Shown here: piece by piece, positions 1-5,605 of the stretch
How positions within the stretch are numbered: position 1 is the first letter of the stretch
How the letters are laid out: each line of letters begins with the position of its first letter
NCBI GenBank assembly: GCA_018457135.1
Contig: JAGGDU010000160.1
Location: 1 to 55,889 of the forward strand
DNA: 55,889 nucleotides
Reading direction: 5' to 3'
From: Trichodesmium erythraeum GBRTRLIN201
Lineage (GTDB): Bacteria; Cyanobacteriota; Cyanobacteriia; Cyanobacteriales; Microcoleaceae
The notes under the pieces: model-generated
The model's input: the letters and a program-made list of their open reading frames with translations, nothing else
The model's database searches: none
What the model was told of the DNA's origin: nothing
Made by a program: the position numbers and the translations under genes

Positions 1-49
1 GAGAGTTGATTATGCTGTTAAGTTAACGTCCTAACCTTTGCTTCGATTG

Positions 50-736
50 CTATAATTCAAATTCAATGTGTGCTAAAATGCGACGGACAAATGCTCCATC
101 ATAGTTTTTGGCGAGGTTCGTGGCAAAAATTACGACTCCATCAAATTTGTCTAGTTGAAGTAACATTACGGAACGACTAACATTAACTCCATGATCGGAA
201 CTTTGGGTGACATTAGTTAATCTTTTTCCTAAGATAGAGTCAGCTTCATCAAAGAATAAAACTGAGTCAGTTTCTTGGGCTTTTTTAAAAGCTGCGGTAA
301 TGTTTTTTGGGGTTTCACCTACATATTTAGACTCAATTTCTGCGTAGTTAACTTTGATGATTTTTTTCTTTAAAATGTGAGCGATCGCTTCTGCACAAAA
401 AGTTTTACCTGTACCTGGTAACCCAAATAAATTAATTGCGGTACGTTTACCTCTGGGGTCAATACTTTTTAAGTTCCATTGGTAATATAAAATATCGTGA
501 TATTTAATTCTATTCAGTGCTGTATCAATTCTATTTTTGACGGTTGAGGGAACTATTAGATCGTCTAAACTTCTCTGAGGTTCTTCTGGGATAAACATTT
601 CCATTCTGTTTATTTCAGTTGTTTTATCAGAGGAATTATTGGTGGGAGTTTGTTGAGGAGGTTTGTTAATATTTGTAGTTTTTATTTCCTCTGTTTTTGT
701 ATTTGTACTTTTTTGTCTTTCCCATCCTGTAGGCAT
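50..736 (-). CDS. AAA+ ATPase, C-terminally shortened
   Basis: A 228-residue classical AAA ATPase of the Vps4/spastin/FtsH-like type. Visible motifs are Walker A GLPGTGKT (105-112), Walker B VLFFDEAD (159-165), sensor 1 FATN (about 204-207) and the arginine-finger pair FVRR (216-219). The first 50 residues are polar, low-complexity and probably flexible. The protein stops right after the arginine-finger helix, so the C-terminal alpha-helical lid that such ATPases normally carry is missing; this may be a truncation or an unusually short form. It is the last gene of a leftward operon behind four small proteins, about 100 bp after the preceding stop. Inference: it remodels or extracts the membrane-anchored small proteins encoded upstream. 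Confident as an AAA ATPase, unsure about activity. Confidence 0.85.
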   Translation of the reverse strand: MPTGWERQKSTNTKTEEIKTTNINKPPQQTPTNNSSDKTTEINRMEMFIPEEPQRSLDDLIVPSTVKNRIDTALNRIKYHDILYYQWNLKSIDPRGKRTAINLFGLPGTGKTFCAEAIAHILKKKIIKVNYAEIESKYVGETPKNITAAFKKAQETDSVLFFDEADSILGKRLTNVTQSSDHGVNVSRSVMLLQLDKFDGVVIFATNLAKNYDGAFVRRILAHIEFEL

Positions 737-840
737 AAATTAATTCTCCTTATAATAATTTGCTAAATATTGAAAAATTAAGTAGTTAGTTAAAAGTTTA
801 GACTATTAAATTTTTTTCCTGGCTACAGATTAATTTATTT

Positions 841-1170
841 TTAGTCAAGTAAATCCATAATTTTGCGCTTATAATATCCTTGTTTTTCTAGTTCCTTTAT
901 AACATCTTCATCATCTATTTCACTCATATTATATTCAGTTTCTGATATGATAGTTTTCCCTGTTTTTTCAGTTTTAATAAAGATTCTAGAACGCACAGTT
1001 CCAACCATTGAATCTAGTTTAACCCAAGCATCCATTAAATCACTTTTTGCCAAACCTTGTTGACGTAACCATTTAGCAACTATTTCTCGTATATCATCCC
1101 ATAATTTAACAACAATTAATGTTCCTACAGCTGCCGCTACTAACATACCTACTGCGACTAACCAACGCAT
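841..1170 (-). CDS. Small membrane-anchored protein, unknown function
   Basis: A 109-residue protein not assigned to a named family. Residues 1-22 form a hydrophobic N-terminal membrane anchor (WLVAVGMLVAAAVGTLIVV); the rest is hydrophilic and charged, probably cytoplasmic. Near the C-terminus, about residues 82-97, the segment IDDEDVIKELEKQG resembles a degenerate form of the LPEDVRxEFLxxG motif seen in the three genes upstream. It lies 22 bp after the stop of the preceding gene and about 100 bp before the AAA ATPase, all leftward, so co-transcription is likely. Inference: a membrane-bound partner or substrate of the ATPase. Reality of the gene is well supported by its operon position; function is unknown. 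Confidence 0.7.
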   Translation of the reverse strand: MRWLVAVGMLVAAAVGTLIVVKLWDDIREIVAKWLRQQGLAKSDLMDAWVKLDSMVGTVRSRIFIKTEKTGKTIISETEYNMSEIDDEDVIKELEKQGYYKRKIMDLLD

Positions 1171-1192
1171 AATATTTATTCTCCTATATCTA

Positions 1193-1639
1193 TTAGTTAT
1201 CCCAGGGAAAATTCCAGGGACGAGTCACAATATTACTACCACTTCTGAGAAATTCTGACCTAATTGTTTCTGGTAGTTCATCCCATTTCCAACTACTAGC
1301 AACGGAAAAATATGTACCGTTTTTGTAATCTAAATTTAGACGAATTTCTATATCATTAAAAGATGATAATTTAGTAAAAGTTAGTCTAGCATAATCAACT
1401 ATTTCGTTAATCCTAGCAATTATTTTAGGATTTGCTATACCCCGAATAGTTTGTAATATTTCTTGACTGGGTATGCCTAATTTTTCTGCTAATGATATAG
1501 ATAATTTTTCCTCAAACCAGCTATCAATATTCCTGCGATTTTCTGCTTCACTTTGTTTAGTTAAAAAATAGATACCTATACCTACTCCTATAACTGCAAT
1601 AATAGAAATGGCAAGCCAGTCAATTTTGATTTGATTCAT
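1193..1639 (-). CDS. Small membrane-anchored protein with C-terminal LPExxR motif
   Basis: A 148-residue protein with one N-terminal transmembrane segment (about residues 7-26, LAISIIAVIGVGIGIYFL) and a soluble remainder of about 120 residues. Starting at residue 119 it has WDELPETIRSEFLRSG, 14 residues before the C-terminus. The downstream paralogue-like neighbour has WDELPEDVRKEFLSKG in the equivalent place. Outside this motif the two proteins do not look alike, so the motif is probably a functional tag or docking peptide and not a trace of whole-gene duplication. The gene is third in the leftward operon, about 50 bp after the preceding stop. I do not recognise a family. Confidence 0.75.
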   Translation of the reverse strand: MNQIKIDWLAISIIAVIGVGIGIYFLTKQSEAENRRNIDSWFEEKLSISLAEKLGIPSQEILQTIRGIANPKIIARINEIVDYARLTFTKLSSFNDIEIRLNLDYKNGTYFSVASSWKWDELPETIRSEFLRSGSNIVTRPWNFPWDN

Positions 1640-1689
1640 TTTTTTTTACCCTAAATACTTAATTTTTTTGAGCAAAACATACTAGTTAA

Positions 1690-2172
1690 CTAAGCAGACA
1701 TATCCATTTCGTCATCGCGATTTTTTGTTACATCAATTTCACTTTCACTTTTTCCTTTGCTGAGAAATTCTTTACGCACATCTTCAGGTAATTCATCCCA
1801 ATTAACTTTCTCTTCTGTCTCTACTTTTACAGGAACTTTTTCACCAGACTCGAGAACTTTAATTACCCAAGATGTAACTCTTCTTATCCATTTGTTTGAT
1901 GACTTTCTTTCTAGTGTTACTACTTGCTTTAACAAAAATTTACGCAACTTTTTCCAGGCTTTGCGAATGATCTTACGGGTATCAACAGCTTGATTATCTA
2001 AAGCACTAAATGCTTTTCTTACTGCACTTTCAATTGAAGGAATATTATTTTTAATCCAAGGAAAAAGACTATCTTCTGCCCAGCCTAAAATTTGATCCCA
2101 AAATATTAATGCGAAAGTTGCTGAAACCCCTAAAGCACCTGCTATAGCCCACATAAATAGTGGAATTGGCAT
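1690..2172 (-). CDS. Small membrane-anchored protein with C-terminal LPExxR motif
   Basis: A 160-residue protein. Residues 5-25 are a strong hydrophobic segment (MWAIAGALGVSATFALIFW), followed by an amphipathic, Lys/Arg-rich helical region (about 60-110) and an acidic, polar tail. The motif WDELPEDVRKEFLSKG begins at residue 125, followed by 20 acidic or polar residues. It starts 4 bp after the stop of the upstream 189-residue gene, a spacing typical of translational coupling. I do not recognise the family. The shared tail motif and operon position link it to the neighbouring small proteins and to the AAA ATPase; its exact role is unknown. Confidence 0.75.
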   Translation of the reverse strand: MPIPLFMWAIAGALGVSATFALIFWDQILGWAEDSLFPWIKNNIPSIESAVRKAFSALDNQAVDTRKIIRKAWKKLRKFLLKQVVTLERKSSNKWIRRVTSWVIKVLESGEKVPVKVETEEKVNWDELPEDVRKEFLSKGKSESEIDVTKNRDDEMDMSA

Positions 2173-2176
2173 AATT

Positions 2177-2746
2177 TTACTCCTTTGGATAAAGTTTAAA
2201 AGTTAATTTTTTTTCACCCTCGCGTAACCACTCTGAACGTACATCTTCAGGTAAACTATCTCTATCTAATTCCTGTTCTATTCTTGTTACTATTGGTTTG
2301 TTTTCTTTAATGTAATAAATTTCTATTTGACGATTATAAGTTTGAACTTTGAGTAATTCAGGTTCATAATTTACTTTAGGTTCATAATTTACTTTAATAG
2401 TTAAAATTAATGCTTTTGCGGCTTCGAGAAGTGTCGGGTTAATTTCTGATCCTTCTTTTACTAATTGTTCGTCAAACTCTCTACAAAGTTTATAGGTAAT
2501 TCTTAAACATTGGGTAATTCTTAAAGGTTCAGATCTTGGTTGAGGCAAGTTTTTTTGCAGAAATTTGGCAATGCTTTGATAAACTTCCTGTCTGTTAGAA
2601 ATATCATTGTCTGGTTCAATTTCTAAAACATTAAAAATATCGTTCAAAGCATTTTTTACTTCTTTTGGTAAATCTTTTTGGTGTAGATACTTTATAACTG
2701 TATAGAATGGTTTTTTTAATAAGCGAGATAATTCCCTTTCTTTCAT
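2177..2746 (-). CDS. Soluble protein with C-terminal LPEDVR motif, first gene of operon
   Basis: A 189-residue, mostly helical, charged protein without an obvious membrane segment, which separates it from the three membrane-anchored proteins downstream. Near the C-terminus, from about residue 161, it has DRDSLPEDVRSEWLREG, the third clear copy of the operon's shared motif. A short internal duplication, VNYEPKVNYEPE (about residues 130-141), is seen both in protein and DNA. It is the first gene of the leftward operon; its start is about 200 bp from the divergently transcribed STAND gene. I do not recognise a family. Inference: it may be the soluble adaptor or regulator of the group. Confidence 0.7.
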   Translation of the reverse strand: MKERELSRLLKKPFYTVIKYLHQKDLPKEVKNALNDIFNVLEIEPDNDISNRQEVYQSIAKFLQKNLPQPRSEPLRITQCLRITYKLCREFDEQLVKEGSEINPTLLEAAKALILTIKVNYEPKVNYEPELLKVQTYNRQIEIYYIKENKPIVTRIEQELDRDSLPEDVRSEWLREGEKKLTFKLYPKE

Positions 2747-2947: not shown

Positions 2948-4363
2948 ATGGATATCCAAGAAATATTGAATTTAGCTGACCATCTCATCTTTAACAAAAC
3001 AGGAAAACATTTAGAAGACCTACAACAAGCTATATTAAAGGGTGTTTTTCAAGGTAAAAAATATTCAGAAATAGCTCAAGAATGTCAATGCACTAACGGT
3101 CATGTCAGGGATGTTGCTTCAGAATTATGGAAAACTTTTTCAGATACTTTTGGAGAACAAGTAAATAAATCTAATCTACGTACCACATTTGAAAGATGGC
3201 AGTTTTCAATAGTTTCATCTCCAAAGATAGAAAAAGACTTTATAGGAATTAAAAATATAAATTTTTGCCCGGAAACTTCCCCTTCTTCAGAAACTATAAA
3301 ACCTGAAAATTTGACTCAGCCAAATATTAACAAATGCCAGACTATTCCTCGACCAAAAATAAACCTATCAGATGCACCAGACTATAAAAAATTCTATGGT
3401 CGAAATCAGGAAATAAAAACTCTGAAAAAATGGATTCTCCAAGAACAAAAAAAATTAGTAATTCTCCATGGAATAATTGGTATTGGCAAAACAGCATTAG
3501 CTCTCCAACTAATCAAAAATATTCAAAATAAGTTCGACTATATAATTTGGCAAAGTCTGCGAGACTCCCCACCTCTTAAAACAATTCAAACTAACCTCAT
3601 TAAATTTATTTCTAACCAAAAATTGACTATTGAAACTTCAGGAAATTCCTATCTTCTAGAAAATTTGAGAAAGCACCGTTGCCTGATAATACTAGATGAC
3701 ATCCAAACAATATTTAGCAGTAGGAAACTAGCAAGTCATTACCTGCCAGAATATGAAAACTACAGTCAATTTTTCCAACTTATTGGCGAACTCTCTCATC
3801 AGAGTTGTTGCTTAATTATTAGTAGAGAAAAACTTAGAGAAATTAGCAGTGGTAAAAATACATCTGTTCGCTCATTACATCTGAAAGGTTTAGATGAGGA
3901 AGCAGCTATAAAAATTCTCAAAGACCAAGATCTAGAAGTAGACGCTCAAGGGCAAAAACTAATTAATTTTTATCAAGGCAACCCGACTTGGTTAAATATA
4001 ATTGCTACTACTATTAATGATTTATTTGCTGGGAGCGTCTCAGAATTATTTCAATATGACTCCCTATTTTTAGATGCAGATATCAAAGAATTATTACATC
4101 AGCAGTTTGCCCGTTTATCAGAGTTAGAAAAACAAATAATCTCTCACTTAGCAACTAAAACTGAAGCAGTGGCTATTTCAACTTTATTAGATAATTTACA
4201 AATACCACTTTCAGATTTATTGAACATAATTAAATCTTTGCAGCGACGTTCTCTAATAGAAAAACAAGAAAACAATTTTATTCTTTTACCTTTGCTGAAA
4301 CTATATTTTTTATCCAATGAAGTAGGAGCAAATTCCCATTTGTCTCTACATTCTTGCGGTTAG
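2948..4363 (+). CDS. STAND NTPase with N-terminal VMAP-type HTH
   Basis: A 471-residue signal-transduction NTPase. Residues 1-80 match the HTH domain found at the N-terminus of many cyanobacterial vWA-MoxR-associated and NB-ARC/WD40 proteins (pattern NKTGKHLEDLQQAIL, YSEIAQEC, GHVRDVASELWK). A poorly conserved linker follows, then an NB-ARC-type NTPase: FYGRNQEIKTL near 148, Walker A GIIGIGKTAL near 175, Walker B LIILDDIQ near 245, then LIISREKLRE and a winged-helix-like region to about 450. The WD40 or TPR sensor that usually follows is absent and the protein ends shortly after the winged-helix region. Such proteins are proposed to be switch components of conflict or cell-death systems. It is divergent from the small-protein/AAA operon, so a joint system is possible. 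Confidence 0.85.
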   Translation: MDIQEILNLADHLIFNKTGKHLEDLQQAILKGVFQGKKYSEIAQECQCTNGHVRDVASELWKTFSDTFGEQVNKSNLRTTFERWQFSIVSSPKIEKDFIGIKNINFCPETSPSSETIKPENLTQPNINKCQTIPRPKINLSDAPDYKKFYGRNQEIKTLKKWILQEQKKLVILHGIIGIGKTALALQLIKNIQNKFDYIIWQSLRDSPPLKTIQTNLIKFISNQKLTIETSGNSYLLENLRKHRCLIILDDIQTIFSSRKLASHYLPEYENYSQFFQLIGELSHQSCCLIISREKLREISSGKNTSVRSLHLKGLDEEAAIKILKDQDLEVDAQGQKLINFYQGNPTWLNIIATTINDLFAGSVSELFQYDSLFLDADIKELLHQQFARLSELEKQIISHLATKTEAVAISTLLDNLQIPLSDLLNIIKSLQRRSLIEKQENNFILLPLLKLYFLSNEVGANSHLSLHSCG

Positions 4364-5009
4364 TAAATTTGATAGGAGAGAAAATTTACAGCAGATTTCT
4401 GGCAAATTATGTATACAGTAAATAGTGAAAATAATGTAGTGTGAGCATCTTACTACTGTAGCTTTACTTTATAACAATGGAAAGTTCTGTATTAATAGTA
4501 TAGACACTGCTATAGCAATCTGAAATAGTTTCTAATATTAAATCTATTTGAGACACTAATTAATATTTATGAAGGCAAGGTACTTATAGGGCAAACAGGA
4601 GGTATAAGGGTTTGAAAGGAATTAAAATAAATATGTTTTTGATAACTGAACTTAGTATAATATTTGATCATAGGAGTTAAGTTTTAAAACCTAAGTTAAA
4701 ATGACATTGGAAGACTAAAACCCTAATTTTTTTTTACCAATTATTTATGAACGCTACATCTTTAATTGCATTAATTAAGTCTGATAATAGATGAGTAGGT
4801 AGTCAAAAATAGATATAATTAACAAATATAGAAAAAAATTTCATTGAGGTAAAATAATTATGCTAATGTTGTGAATTTGCTTAAATAAATTACTCTCGCA
4901 TAATTTTTACAATAGCCAAAAATAAAACTAGTAAATAAGTATATTAACAATCAAATTTATGAAAAACTAATGCCACAAGAAAAACAAGGAAATACTAAAT
5001 GCTTAAATA
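4364..5009. other. Gene-free stretch
   Basis: About 650 bp of AT-rich sequence downstream of the STAND gene. No credible reading frame or RNA gene was seen. There is no recognisable WD40 remnant that would explain the missing C-terminal sensor of the STAND protein. Confidence 0.5.
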
Positions 5010-5605
5010 CTAACAAACAAAACTGGTTAATATTCCTAAAATATTCGGTAAGTTATAAACAGAATATTCCTCTAAATCTATAACTATTGTTTTAGATTCT
5101 AACTCTATAAATTGCCAAGCATTACCAGTAGTAATAACTCCATAAATCTTGGGAATTTCTTTGCCTTTGCTTTGATTAAAAATTTGAGCAGCAAGCATTT
5201 CTGCCATACATTGAGCTAAACCATTTCTCAGGTTATCGTTTTTAGCTTCTACTAAAGTTATTACTGGTGCTTTGAGAACTATTTGCTGAGTTGATAAACT
5301 GATAATAAAGTCACAAAAAACATTTAATCCTAAATCTGGATTAACATTAAACTCAATCCCTGAAAATAAACTTATCTGGTTATTAGATATTTTTTTAATT
5401 CTGCTAATATCGGCGCAATAATAAATTCTGAACAAGCTTTTTCCGAAGCGATCGCTACTGCTAATGGTAAATAATATTCTAAAGCTTCTTGAATAAATTT
5501 ACTGGGATAAACTTCTGGTAGTTGATTAAATTTACCCAATTTTTCGACCAAGTTGAGATTAAAATTTGCCAGAACTTCTTCTAGGGTAAATCTACTATAA
5601 AACAT
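5010..5605 (-). pseudogene. Nuclease-fold conserved cyanobacterial protein, frameshifted
   Basis: Two overlapping frames together encode one protein of about 198 residues of a family common in cyanobacteria, with a restriction-endonuclease-like (PD-(D/E)XK) core. The first frame (start at 5605) gives MFYSRFTLEEVLANF to EFIIAPILAELKK; the second continues KISNNQISLFSGIEFNVN, CDFIIS and VTLVEAKN to GILTSFVC. D of CDFIIS and E/K of EAKN fit the nuclease-like acidic and lysine positions. The frames join at a run of seven T on the plus strand (5390-5396); eight would restore the frame. This could be a natural mutation, transcript slippage, or a sequencing error. The start lies inside the 563-bp duplicated unit. 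Function in the family is not established. Confidence 0.75.

Follow-up and report, generated by a model that had tools for sequence, protein, structure and literature searches.

Pvc15, the ATPase of an extracellular contractile injection system (eCIS), relies on its D2 ATPase domain and on a tag at the end of the cargo to select and stabilise that cargo, as excerpts of PMC11495950 describe it. Other described systems bring an AAA ATPase together with a subtilase (IetAS) or with membrane-associated proteins (ESCRT-III/Vps4 and PspA-AAA; excerpts of PMC11237479), and the MoxR-vWA/STAND ternary systems of Kaur et al. combine a chaperone ATPase, a STAND protein and one small domain carried by several proteins (excerpts of PMC7159879 and PMC8195603). 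Here we analysed a locus of the cyanobacterium Trichodesmium erythraeum GBRTRLIN201 (genome G000, 7.2 Mb), situated at the start of the window (contig C160, bases 1 to 55,889), where an AAA ATPase gene (E) lies in one operon with four genes for small proteins (A, B, C and D; order along the window E-D-C-B-A). We favour, with a probability of about 0.5, a system in which E encodes a single-domain AAA chaperone or remodeller whose anchored partners dock through a shared tail domain, serving conflict or stress.

We compared the locus with each of these systems. In a tree of 49 rows, a 43-row set with the ATPase of the window stands apart from five eCIS ATPases (100/99), and eCIS membership was rejected on this ground. 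Those five rows are nonetheless the nearest AAA rows outside the set, and Pvc15 reads a client tag (excerpts of PMC11495950); Pvc15 itself is not in the tree. The two differ in design: Pvc15 is a three-domain protein with AAA in tandem, its clients are tagged at the N-terminus and it belongs to a phage-tail-like particle, whereas the window operon has a single AAA, C-terminal tails and membrane anchors. No Pfam match to sheath, tube or baseplate genes was found in the operon proteins, the STAND protein or seven flanking genes of the related loci L030, L033, L034 and L067, other neighbours being read by eye. PADLOC IetA models match the AAA of the window at 3e-28; IetAS, however, pairs its AAA with a subtilase, which the window operon lacks. 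Membership was rejected, as no S8 protease gene was found in the window operon or among the scanned flanking genes of its closest group of loci, and the IteA equivalog model scores 67.2 against 510 bits on the truncated copy. ESCRT-III/Vps4 or PspA membership was also rejected (no Snf7, PspA or MIT match at E up to 1), A matching EAP30/Vps36 of the ESCRT-II family at E 0.011, below the cut-off. The MoxR-vWA systems resemble the locus also by a CHAT protein, found in a related Streptomyces locus (excerpts of PMC7159879 and PMC8195603), whereas the window has a classical AAA and C-terminal tails on small membrane proteins; no MoxR AAA or vWA match was found in the operon proteins or the STAND protein. 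Among the papers listed in the literature searched (titles and abstract starts, most subscription papers and preprints lying outside the scope), we found no description of such a system. We regard the locus as a variant of the tag-reading ATPase theme, and there is a real chance that it represents a novel class.

The operon and its shared C-terminal domain

Computation establishes the operon and the domain common to A, B and C. As stated in a preliminary description of this DNA, which had reported a five-gene operon at 50-2746, five open reading frames (ORFs) are present on the minus strand (50-736, 841-1170, 1193-1639, 1690-2172 and 2177-2746). The features are the following.

1-52, minus strand: contig start and end of an IS630-family-like insertion sequence (IS) element that interrupts the ATPase gene (family assigned by eye; 33-base end sequence)
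50-736, minus strand: gene E, coding here for the first two thirds of an AAA ATPase, 228 codons (Pfam AAA, 3.7e-26; alignment)
841-1170, minus strand: gene D, 109 amino acids, one N-terminal transmembrane helix, anchor 'KLWDDI', weak tail
877-918, minus strand: tail motif of D, IDDEDVIKELEKQG, residue 85, not significant (shuffles, profiles)
1193-1639, minus strand: gene C, 148 amino acids, one N-terminal transmembrane helix, C-terminal tail domain
1238-1285, minus strand: tail motif of C, WDELPETIRSEFLRSG (shuffle test)
1690-2172, minus strand: gene B, 160 amino acids, transmembrane helix followed by a FWDQILGWA anchor segment, C-terminal tail domain
1753-1800, minus strand: tail motif of B, WDELPEDVRKEFLSKG (shuffle test)
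2177-2746, minus strand: gene A, 189 amino acids, no transmembrane helix, C-terminal tail domain
2216-2260, minus strand: tail motif of A, DSLPEDVRSEWLREG (shuffle test)
2747-2947, no strand: divergent promoter region and candidate operator, containing three direct repeats of the GTAGG(G/A) type (six-genome alignment)
2948-4363, plus strand: STAND NTPase with an N-terminal helix-turn-helix (HTH)-like region and NB-ARC, predicted operon regulator (Pfam NB-ARC, 1.1e-11)

The preliminary description had placed a common motif at residues 119, 125 and about 163 of three proteins, and these positions are exact: it starts at residue 119 in C, 125 in B and 163 in A, followed by 14, 20 and 12 residues. 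The best ungapped 16-mer triple of A, B and C scored 166, a value that no shuffle reached (0/300; highest 84), and profile comparison with hhalign gave 93.6% for A-B over 58 columns, 88.8% for B-C over 99 and 89.9% for A-C over 76. We rejected a fixed peptide tag as the sole reading because the homology spans 58-99 columns and Streptomyces homologues lack the motif letters. The likeness behind the peptide described earlier is therefore real, as part of a domain and near the end of the proteins, not at their very end: judged from these profiles, the 16-residue motif forms the centre of a roughly 70-residue domain at the C-terminus, not a loose peptide. In a model of the B tail based on 13 tails (pLDDT 73.8, pTM 0.50), three long strands are followed by the motif helix and one more strand. 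Searches for relatives of the tail gave nothing convincing, either by sequence in the PDB or with the model in Foldseek (best E 0.0097; query-normalised TM score at most 0.46 among the best 50 of 1284 matches). The weaker motif attributed earlier to the fourth protein, D, did not hold up: the best 16-mers of D against A, B and C were equalled by 293, 96 and 166 of 1000 shuffles, the B-D profile probability was 11.5%, and D was absent from the matches, at E up to 5, of a tail profile built without it.

We also asked where else the tail occurs. A profile built without the distant relative G130 (D included) recovered four tails from the operon of G130, with E between 1e-10 and 6e-8. With the same profile eight of 291 genomes of the class were matched. 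In G000 and G130 all four matches per genome fall within the operon; the other six genomes have one place each outside the operon (E 0.004-0.009; nothing outside operons below E 0.004). The three of these six off-operon places that were read, which bear on the earlier concern that the motif might turn up in unrelated proteins, were all YchF GTPases with a look-alike short helix; the motif alone is not specific. A profile without Planctomycetota sequences retrieved, among 6812 ORFs, two proteins beside a Planctomycetota AAA (E 4.4e-7 and 3.2e-6). Homologues without the motif, another concern raised earlier, exist in part: the Streptomyces ones lack its letters, and altered forms of it persist in cyanobacterial, Chloroflexi and two Planctomycetota homologues.

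The membrane anchors are equally established: B, C and D each start with a single hydrophobic helix (best 19-residue Kyte-Doolittle mean 1.99, 2.39 and 2.52) and are the three single-helix proteins announced in the preliminary description, while A has none (0.89). A to D gave no above-cut-off Pfam or NCBIfam match and no PADLOC match, the best PHROGs match being at 0.0071. The HTH-like matches of the STAND protein were below the cut-off in the Pfam scan.

The ATPase matches Pfam AAA (PF00004) with 92.6 bits, against a gathering threshold of 21.2, and the alignment contains Walker A and B, sensor and arginine finger residues. Gene E thus qualifies, by its sequence, as a classical AAA ATPase, whose window copy lacks the C-terminal third; the earlier assignment of the last gene to the AAA ATPases was right as to family, for a gene that is truncated here. 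Close homologues of 341-363 amino acids are intact in relatives. The window ATPase ends after residue 228 (RRILAHIEFEL) at the end of the IS630-like element, and the remainder lies at G000:C110:30678-31058, 80% identical to that of a relative and no more than 80 bases from where the analysed stretch of C110 ends. The 33-base end sequence of the element is found at six places in the genome (up to 3 mismatches), two internal copies lie near split transposase ORFs, IS630-like by eye, and the ends of C160 and C110 carry similar inverted sequences. As the element interrupts the ATPase, the system is probably crippled in this genome. Five ATPase ends from the group of cyanobacterial loci to which the window belongs (one being the C110 part of G000) carry a motif-like tail, which the tail profile matches in the register of the motif and above 60/60 column shuffles.

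Co-occurrence and divergence in close relatives

Co-occurrence in close genomes was established by counting: B is found in 7 of 59 genomes (G000 counted), an ATPase at least 88% identical in 8, and both in 6, while across the 291 class genomes B and a close ATPase (at least 73% to the window piece) occur in the same two. Lack of joint conservation, which the preliminary description had named as speaking against its reading, was therefore mostly not what we found. Beside B, A is adjacent in all seven cases and the divergent STAND gene is present in six (in the seventh the contig ends; in G030 it consists of two ORFs). C lies on the contig of B in five of the seven, once on another contig, and once the contig ends. 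Among the loci read, D was seen in G000 and G130 only, the G130 orthologue lying at the same place with 34% identity. Full-length ATPase, A, B and C are together in G027, G030, G013, G006 and G130, and in G023, where B lies at the end of a contig, there is no such close ATPase. B is duplicated in G130. As a side observation, partial extra copies of the tail-coding part of B, most of them with stops, lie beside B in G003:C1228, G013:C141, G023:C73, G027:C263 and G006:C280.

The divergence contrast within the locus is also plain. When the window was compared with four relatives, of which three served for C and the ATPase, DNA identity was 87-88% for the STAND gene, 79% for the intergenic region and 89-90% for the AAA gene, but 64-66% for A, 74-77% for B and 74-76% for C. 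The ratio of nonsynonymous to synonymous substitution rates (dN/dS) was 0.13-0.35 for the ATPase, 0.26-0.50 for A, 0.41-0.76 for B and 0.30-0.68 for C, below 1 in all computed pairs. The intergenic region (2747-2947) has a mean column identity of 89% in the six-genome alignment. Its GTAGG(G/A)-type repeats, near 2811, 2831 and 2895, were found in the three loci scanned (window, L030 and L031; one substitution allowed, no significance test). The seven flanking genes of L030, L033, L034 and L067 encode a GTPase/DUF697 protein, two GDT1 proteins, an integrase, a transposase, an FtsJ protein and one protein without match.

Wider relatives and the ATPase group

An AAA match at 1e-30 was obtained in 31 of the 291 class genomes and is short in eight (302-385 amino acids, the cut copy of the window aside), the remaining AAA matches listed having open frames of 446-764 amino acids. 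The cyanobacterial loci fall into three groups: gp1, with the window and G130; gp2, with other small proteins and a divergent HTH or STAND gene in three loci; and gp3, with a copy in G000 itself at C46 (STAND, ATPase, a 115 amino acid membrane protein and a 133 amino acid soluble protein). The gp3 membrane anchor resembles that of B (85.9% over 30 residues), and its tails match the window tail weakly (7.5 and 3.2%), each above 60/60 shuffles.

A scan of genome contigs, in which 80 loci of 478 relatives were kept and all profile-scanned and the neighbourhoods of 40 were read (three without a clear ATPase ORF), gave small tail-sharing partners in 11 of the 40: L075, L078 (Chloroflexi) and L080 (Planctomycetota, its operon including an M48 peptidase) in gp1; L083 in gp2; L085, L089 and L090 in gp3; L086, L087, L101 and L102 in gp4. 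The viral collection (80 loci kept, all profile-scanned, ten neighbourhoods viewed) adds one gp4 provirus, L166. The gp4 tails have no detectable homology to the window tail. Operons of the same design, with tails without shown homology to that of the window, were also found in Bacteroidetes, Firmicutes and Spirochaetes, and for the Bacteroidetes/Firmicutes tails neither sequence nor model comparison showed homology. On plasmids, a Streptomyces locus encodes A-like (96.5%) and B-like (98.4%) proteins plus the CHAT protein, the B-like one having no further plasmid copy besides itself in 72,556 records. A Comamonas plasmid operon of about 2.3 kb has a tail that matches the window tail with 52.7%. 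The Moraxella tail is matched to that of Comamonas at 6e-4, and no other record among the 72,556 was found. Going by these comparisons, the same architecture is present in Chloroflexi, Planctomycetota, Streptomyces (with CHAT) and the Comamonas and Moraxella plasmids.

In the tree, gp2, gp3, gp4 and gp5 (plasmid) each form one branch, and gp1 does not, because its rows from Streptomyces, Planctomycetota and Chloroflexi have only a loose position. Among the five eCIS rows, Afp15 and L115 owe this label to clear eCIS neighbour genes, L112 to sub-cut-off ones, and L109 and L111 to their length. The ATPase of Serratia pADAP, which we take to be Afp15, has 31.7% identity and lies beside a tape-measure gene.

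Several loci met during these scans deserve mention. At L084, L088, L091, L093, L094, L095 and the provirus L165 the ATPase precedes a protein of about 425 amino acids (six of the seven on one branch, L091 not placed), and in most of them ZorA-like (L084, 5.8e-15) and ZorB-like (L094, 1.2e-22) proteins follow, one of each having been scanned; these loci look to be a Zorya-like motor operon with an AAA. ATPases of the group also lie beside a TipAS-domain protein (L076, 8384-9810; L244, 6478-7801), the Lactobacillus one adjoining lantibiotic genes. An IetAS-like pair, AAA plus Peptidase_S8 (1.7e-31 at C27), is found in the same genome as the window (G000:C27, L037 6552-9932), the C27 AAA lying on a very long branch of the tree. 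The Planktothrix plasmid L246 has five small proteins, and its HSP70-TPR protein (2972-5071) ends like them, in a gp4-like manner (eye and alignment). DUF1232 proteins lie near ATPase operons in two phyla (L080, 11404-12048; L086, 243-527).

Proposed mechanism and rival explanations

In the mechanism that we propose, the AAA would act on membrane-anchored B, C and D (and duplicates) and on soluble A. The homologous C-terminal domain of about 70 residues (surely in A, B and C) would be cytosolic and serve as docking module for the ATPase, for the other partners or for both, and the ATPase, fuelled by ATP, would hold, assemble or dismantle the membrane-bound set. The divergent HTH-STAND protein would turn the operon on via the shared promoter, and the purpose would be conflict (anti-phage or anti-competitor) or an envelope-stress response with variable partners. 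We thus infer the contact between tail and ATPase, the cytosolic side, the STAND control and the purpose. Since Pvc15 reads a tag, the window ATPase may by analogy read a common module on its partners, as Pvc15 does with cargo. The preliminary description had offered a docking or a degradation signal: docking fits and gains by this analogy, while degradation finds little support because the operon has no protease gene. A role in conflict is suggested by the conserved ends of the locus, its diverging middle, its occurrence on plasmids and in proviruses, and the CHAT neighbour.

Several results weigh against this mechanism. G001 has an intact ATPase and no A to D seen, with a run of Ns upstream, and G012 has a truncated ATPase and STAND remnants without A to C. 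The higher dN/dS of the partners may reflect relaxed constraint or recombination. The match of the ATPase tails to the profile is weak (10% probability), and none was seen for the ATPases of Chloroflexi, Planctomycetota and Streptomyces. The tail itself is unevenly kept: D is not significant with the profile lacking it, the Streptomyces homologues of A and B are without the WDELP letters, the Moraxella plasmid tail has 4.3% against that of the window, no clear match alone, and the end of the Planctomycetota M48 peptidase is not significant (E 3.4 with the same tail profile). Tails of the Bacteroidetes/Firmicutes type reach 0.2%, with 2/60 shuffles as high, and their low-confidence model has a similar strand-strand-helix order and no last strand. 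Finally, the 43-row set includes ATPases without tail-sharing partners (six next to Zorya-like motor genes, two next to TipAS proteins, lone genes and others), so the ATPase either predates the tail design or is the more versatile of the two.

We weighed this docking mechanism against four other explanations. The tail could be a homotypic assembly domain, A to D polymerising or forming a membrane ring that the ATPase dismantles, as Vps4/CdvC does with ESCRT-III, without reading each tail. One domain common to several paralogues, with B doubled in G130 and in pieces in five relatives, would fit, and so would the first NCBIfam model of the AAA, CdvC (1e-18; 67.5 bits, the cut-off being 650), and the EAP30/Vps36 match of A (E 0.011, sub-cut-off). 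We nevertheless hold this explanation unlikely: the CdvC and EAP30 matches are far below their cut-offs, the CdvC one is generic to AAA, IteA/IetA models score as well, and MIT, PspA and Snf7 gave no match at E up to 1. Plain paralogy, in which A to D stem from one duplicated gene and the tail has its own job unlinked to the ATPase, would account for homology reaching past the motif, for the duplicated B pieces in five relatives and for the intact ATPase of G001 with no A to D seen. It is made improbable by an operon kept with its ATPase across Cyanobacteria, Chloroflexi, Planctomycetota, Streptomyces and plasmids, and by a tail profile that in 291 genomes matches operons alone, six near-threshold places aside.

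That the operon is a decayed remnant without current role in this lineage could be argued from the ATPase cut by the IS-like element, A to D not seen in G001, A to C lost in G012, the B pieces with stops and the STAND gene of G030 in two ORFs. To this explanation we give little credence, as the frames of A to D and STAND are open in the window, dN/dS is below 1 in all computed pairs, and full-length ATPase, A, B and C coexist in five genomes (G027, G030, G013, G006 and G130). Very improbable is a degradation signal, by which the ATPase would unfold tailed proteins for a protease. IetAS does pair an AAA with a subtilase (G000 C27), and the Planctomycetota operon holds an M48 peptidase with a tail-like end (E 3.4, not significant); no protease gene, however, was seen in the window operon or among the ORFs read in gp1 cyanobacterial loci, and a Pfam scan of the seven flanking genes gave none.

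As similar clusters occur in other phyla and on plasmids, the docking mechanism may belong to an undescribed membrane-linked defence or stress machine. More tentatively, and with some doubt, we consider an undescribed class of machines across eight phyla and plasmids, in which a tag-reading AAA has changeable anchored partners with a common C-terminal docking domain, tails switch between lineages, and the whole provides an inducible, diversifying membrane immunity. If true, the locus would add a membrane-anchored, multi-client member to the small list of client-tag-reading bacterial ATPases, and the operons of Chloroflexi, Planctomycetota, Streptomyces and small plasmids would serve for testing the role of the shared tail. 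Partners that diverge fast between a conserved regulator and a conserved ATPase would then suggest a membrane arms race.

Elsewhere in the window, two overlapping minus-strand ORFs at 5010-5605 resemble one frameshifted gene.

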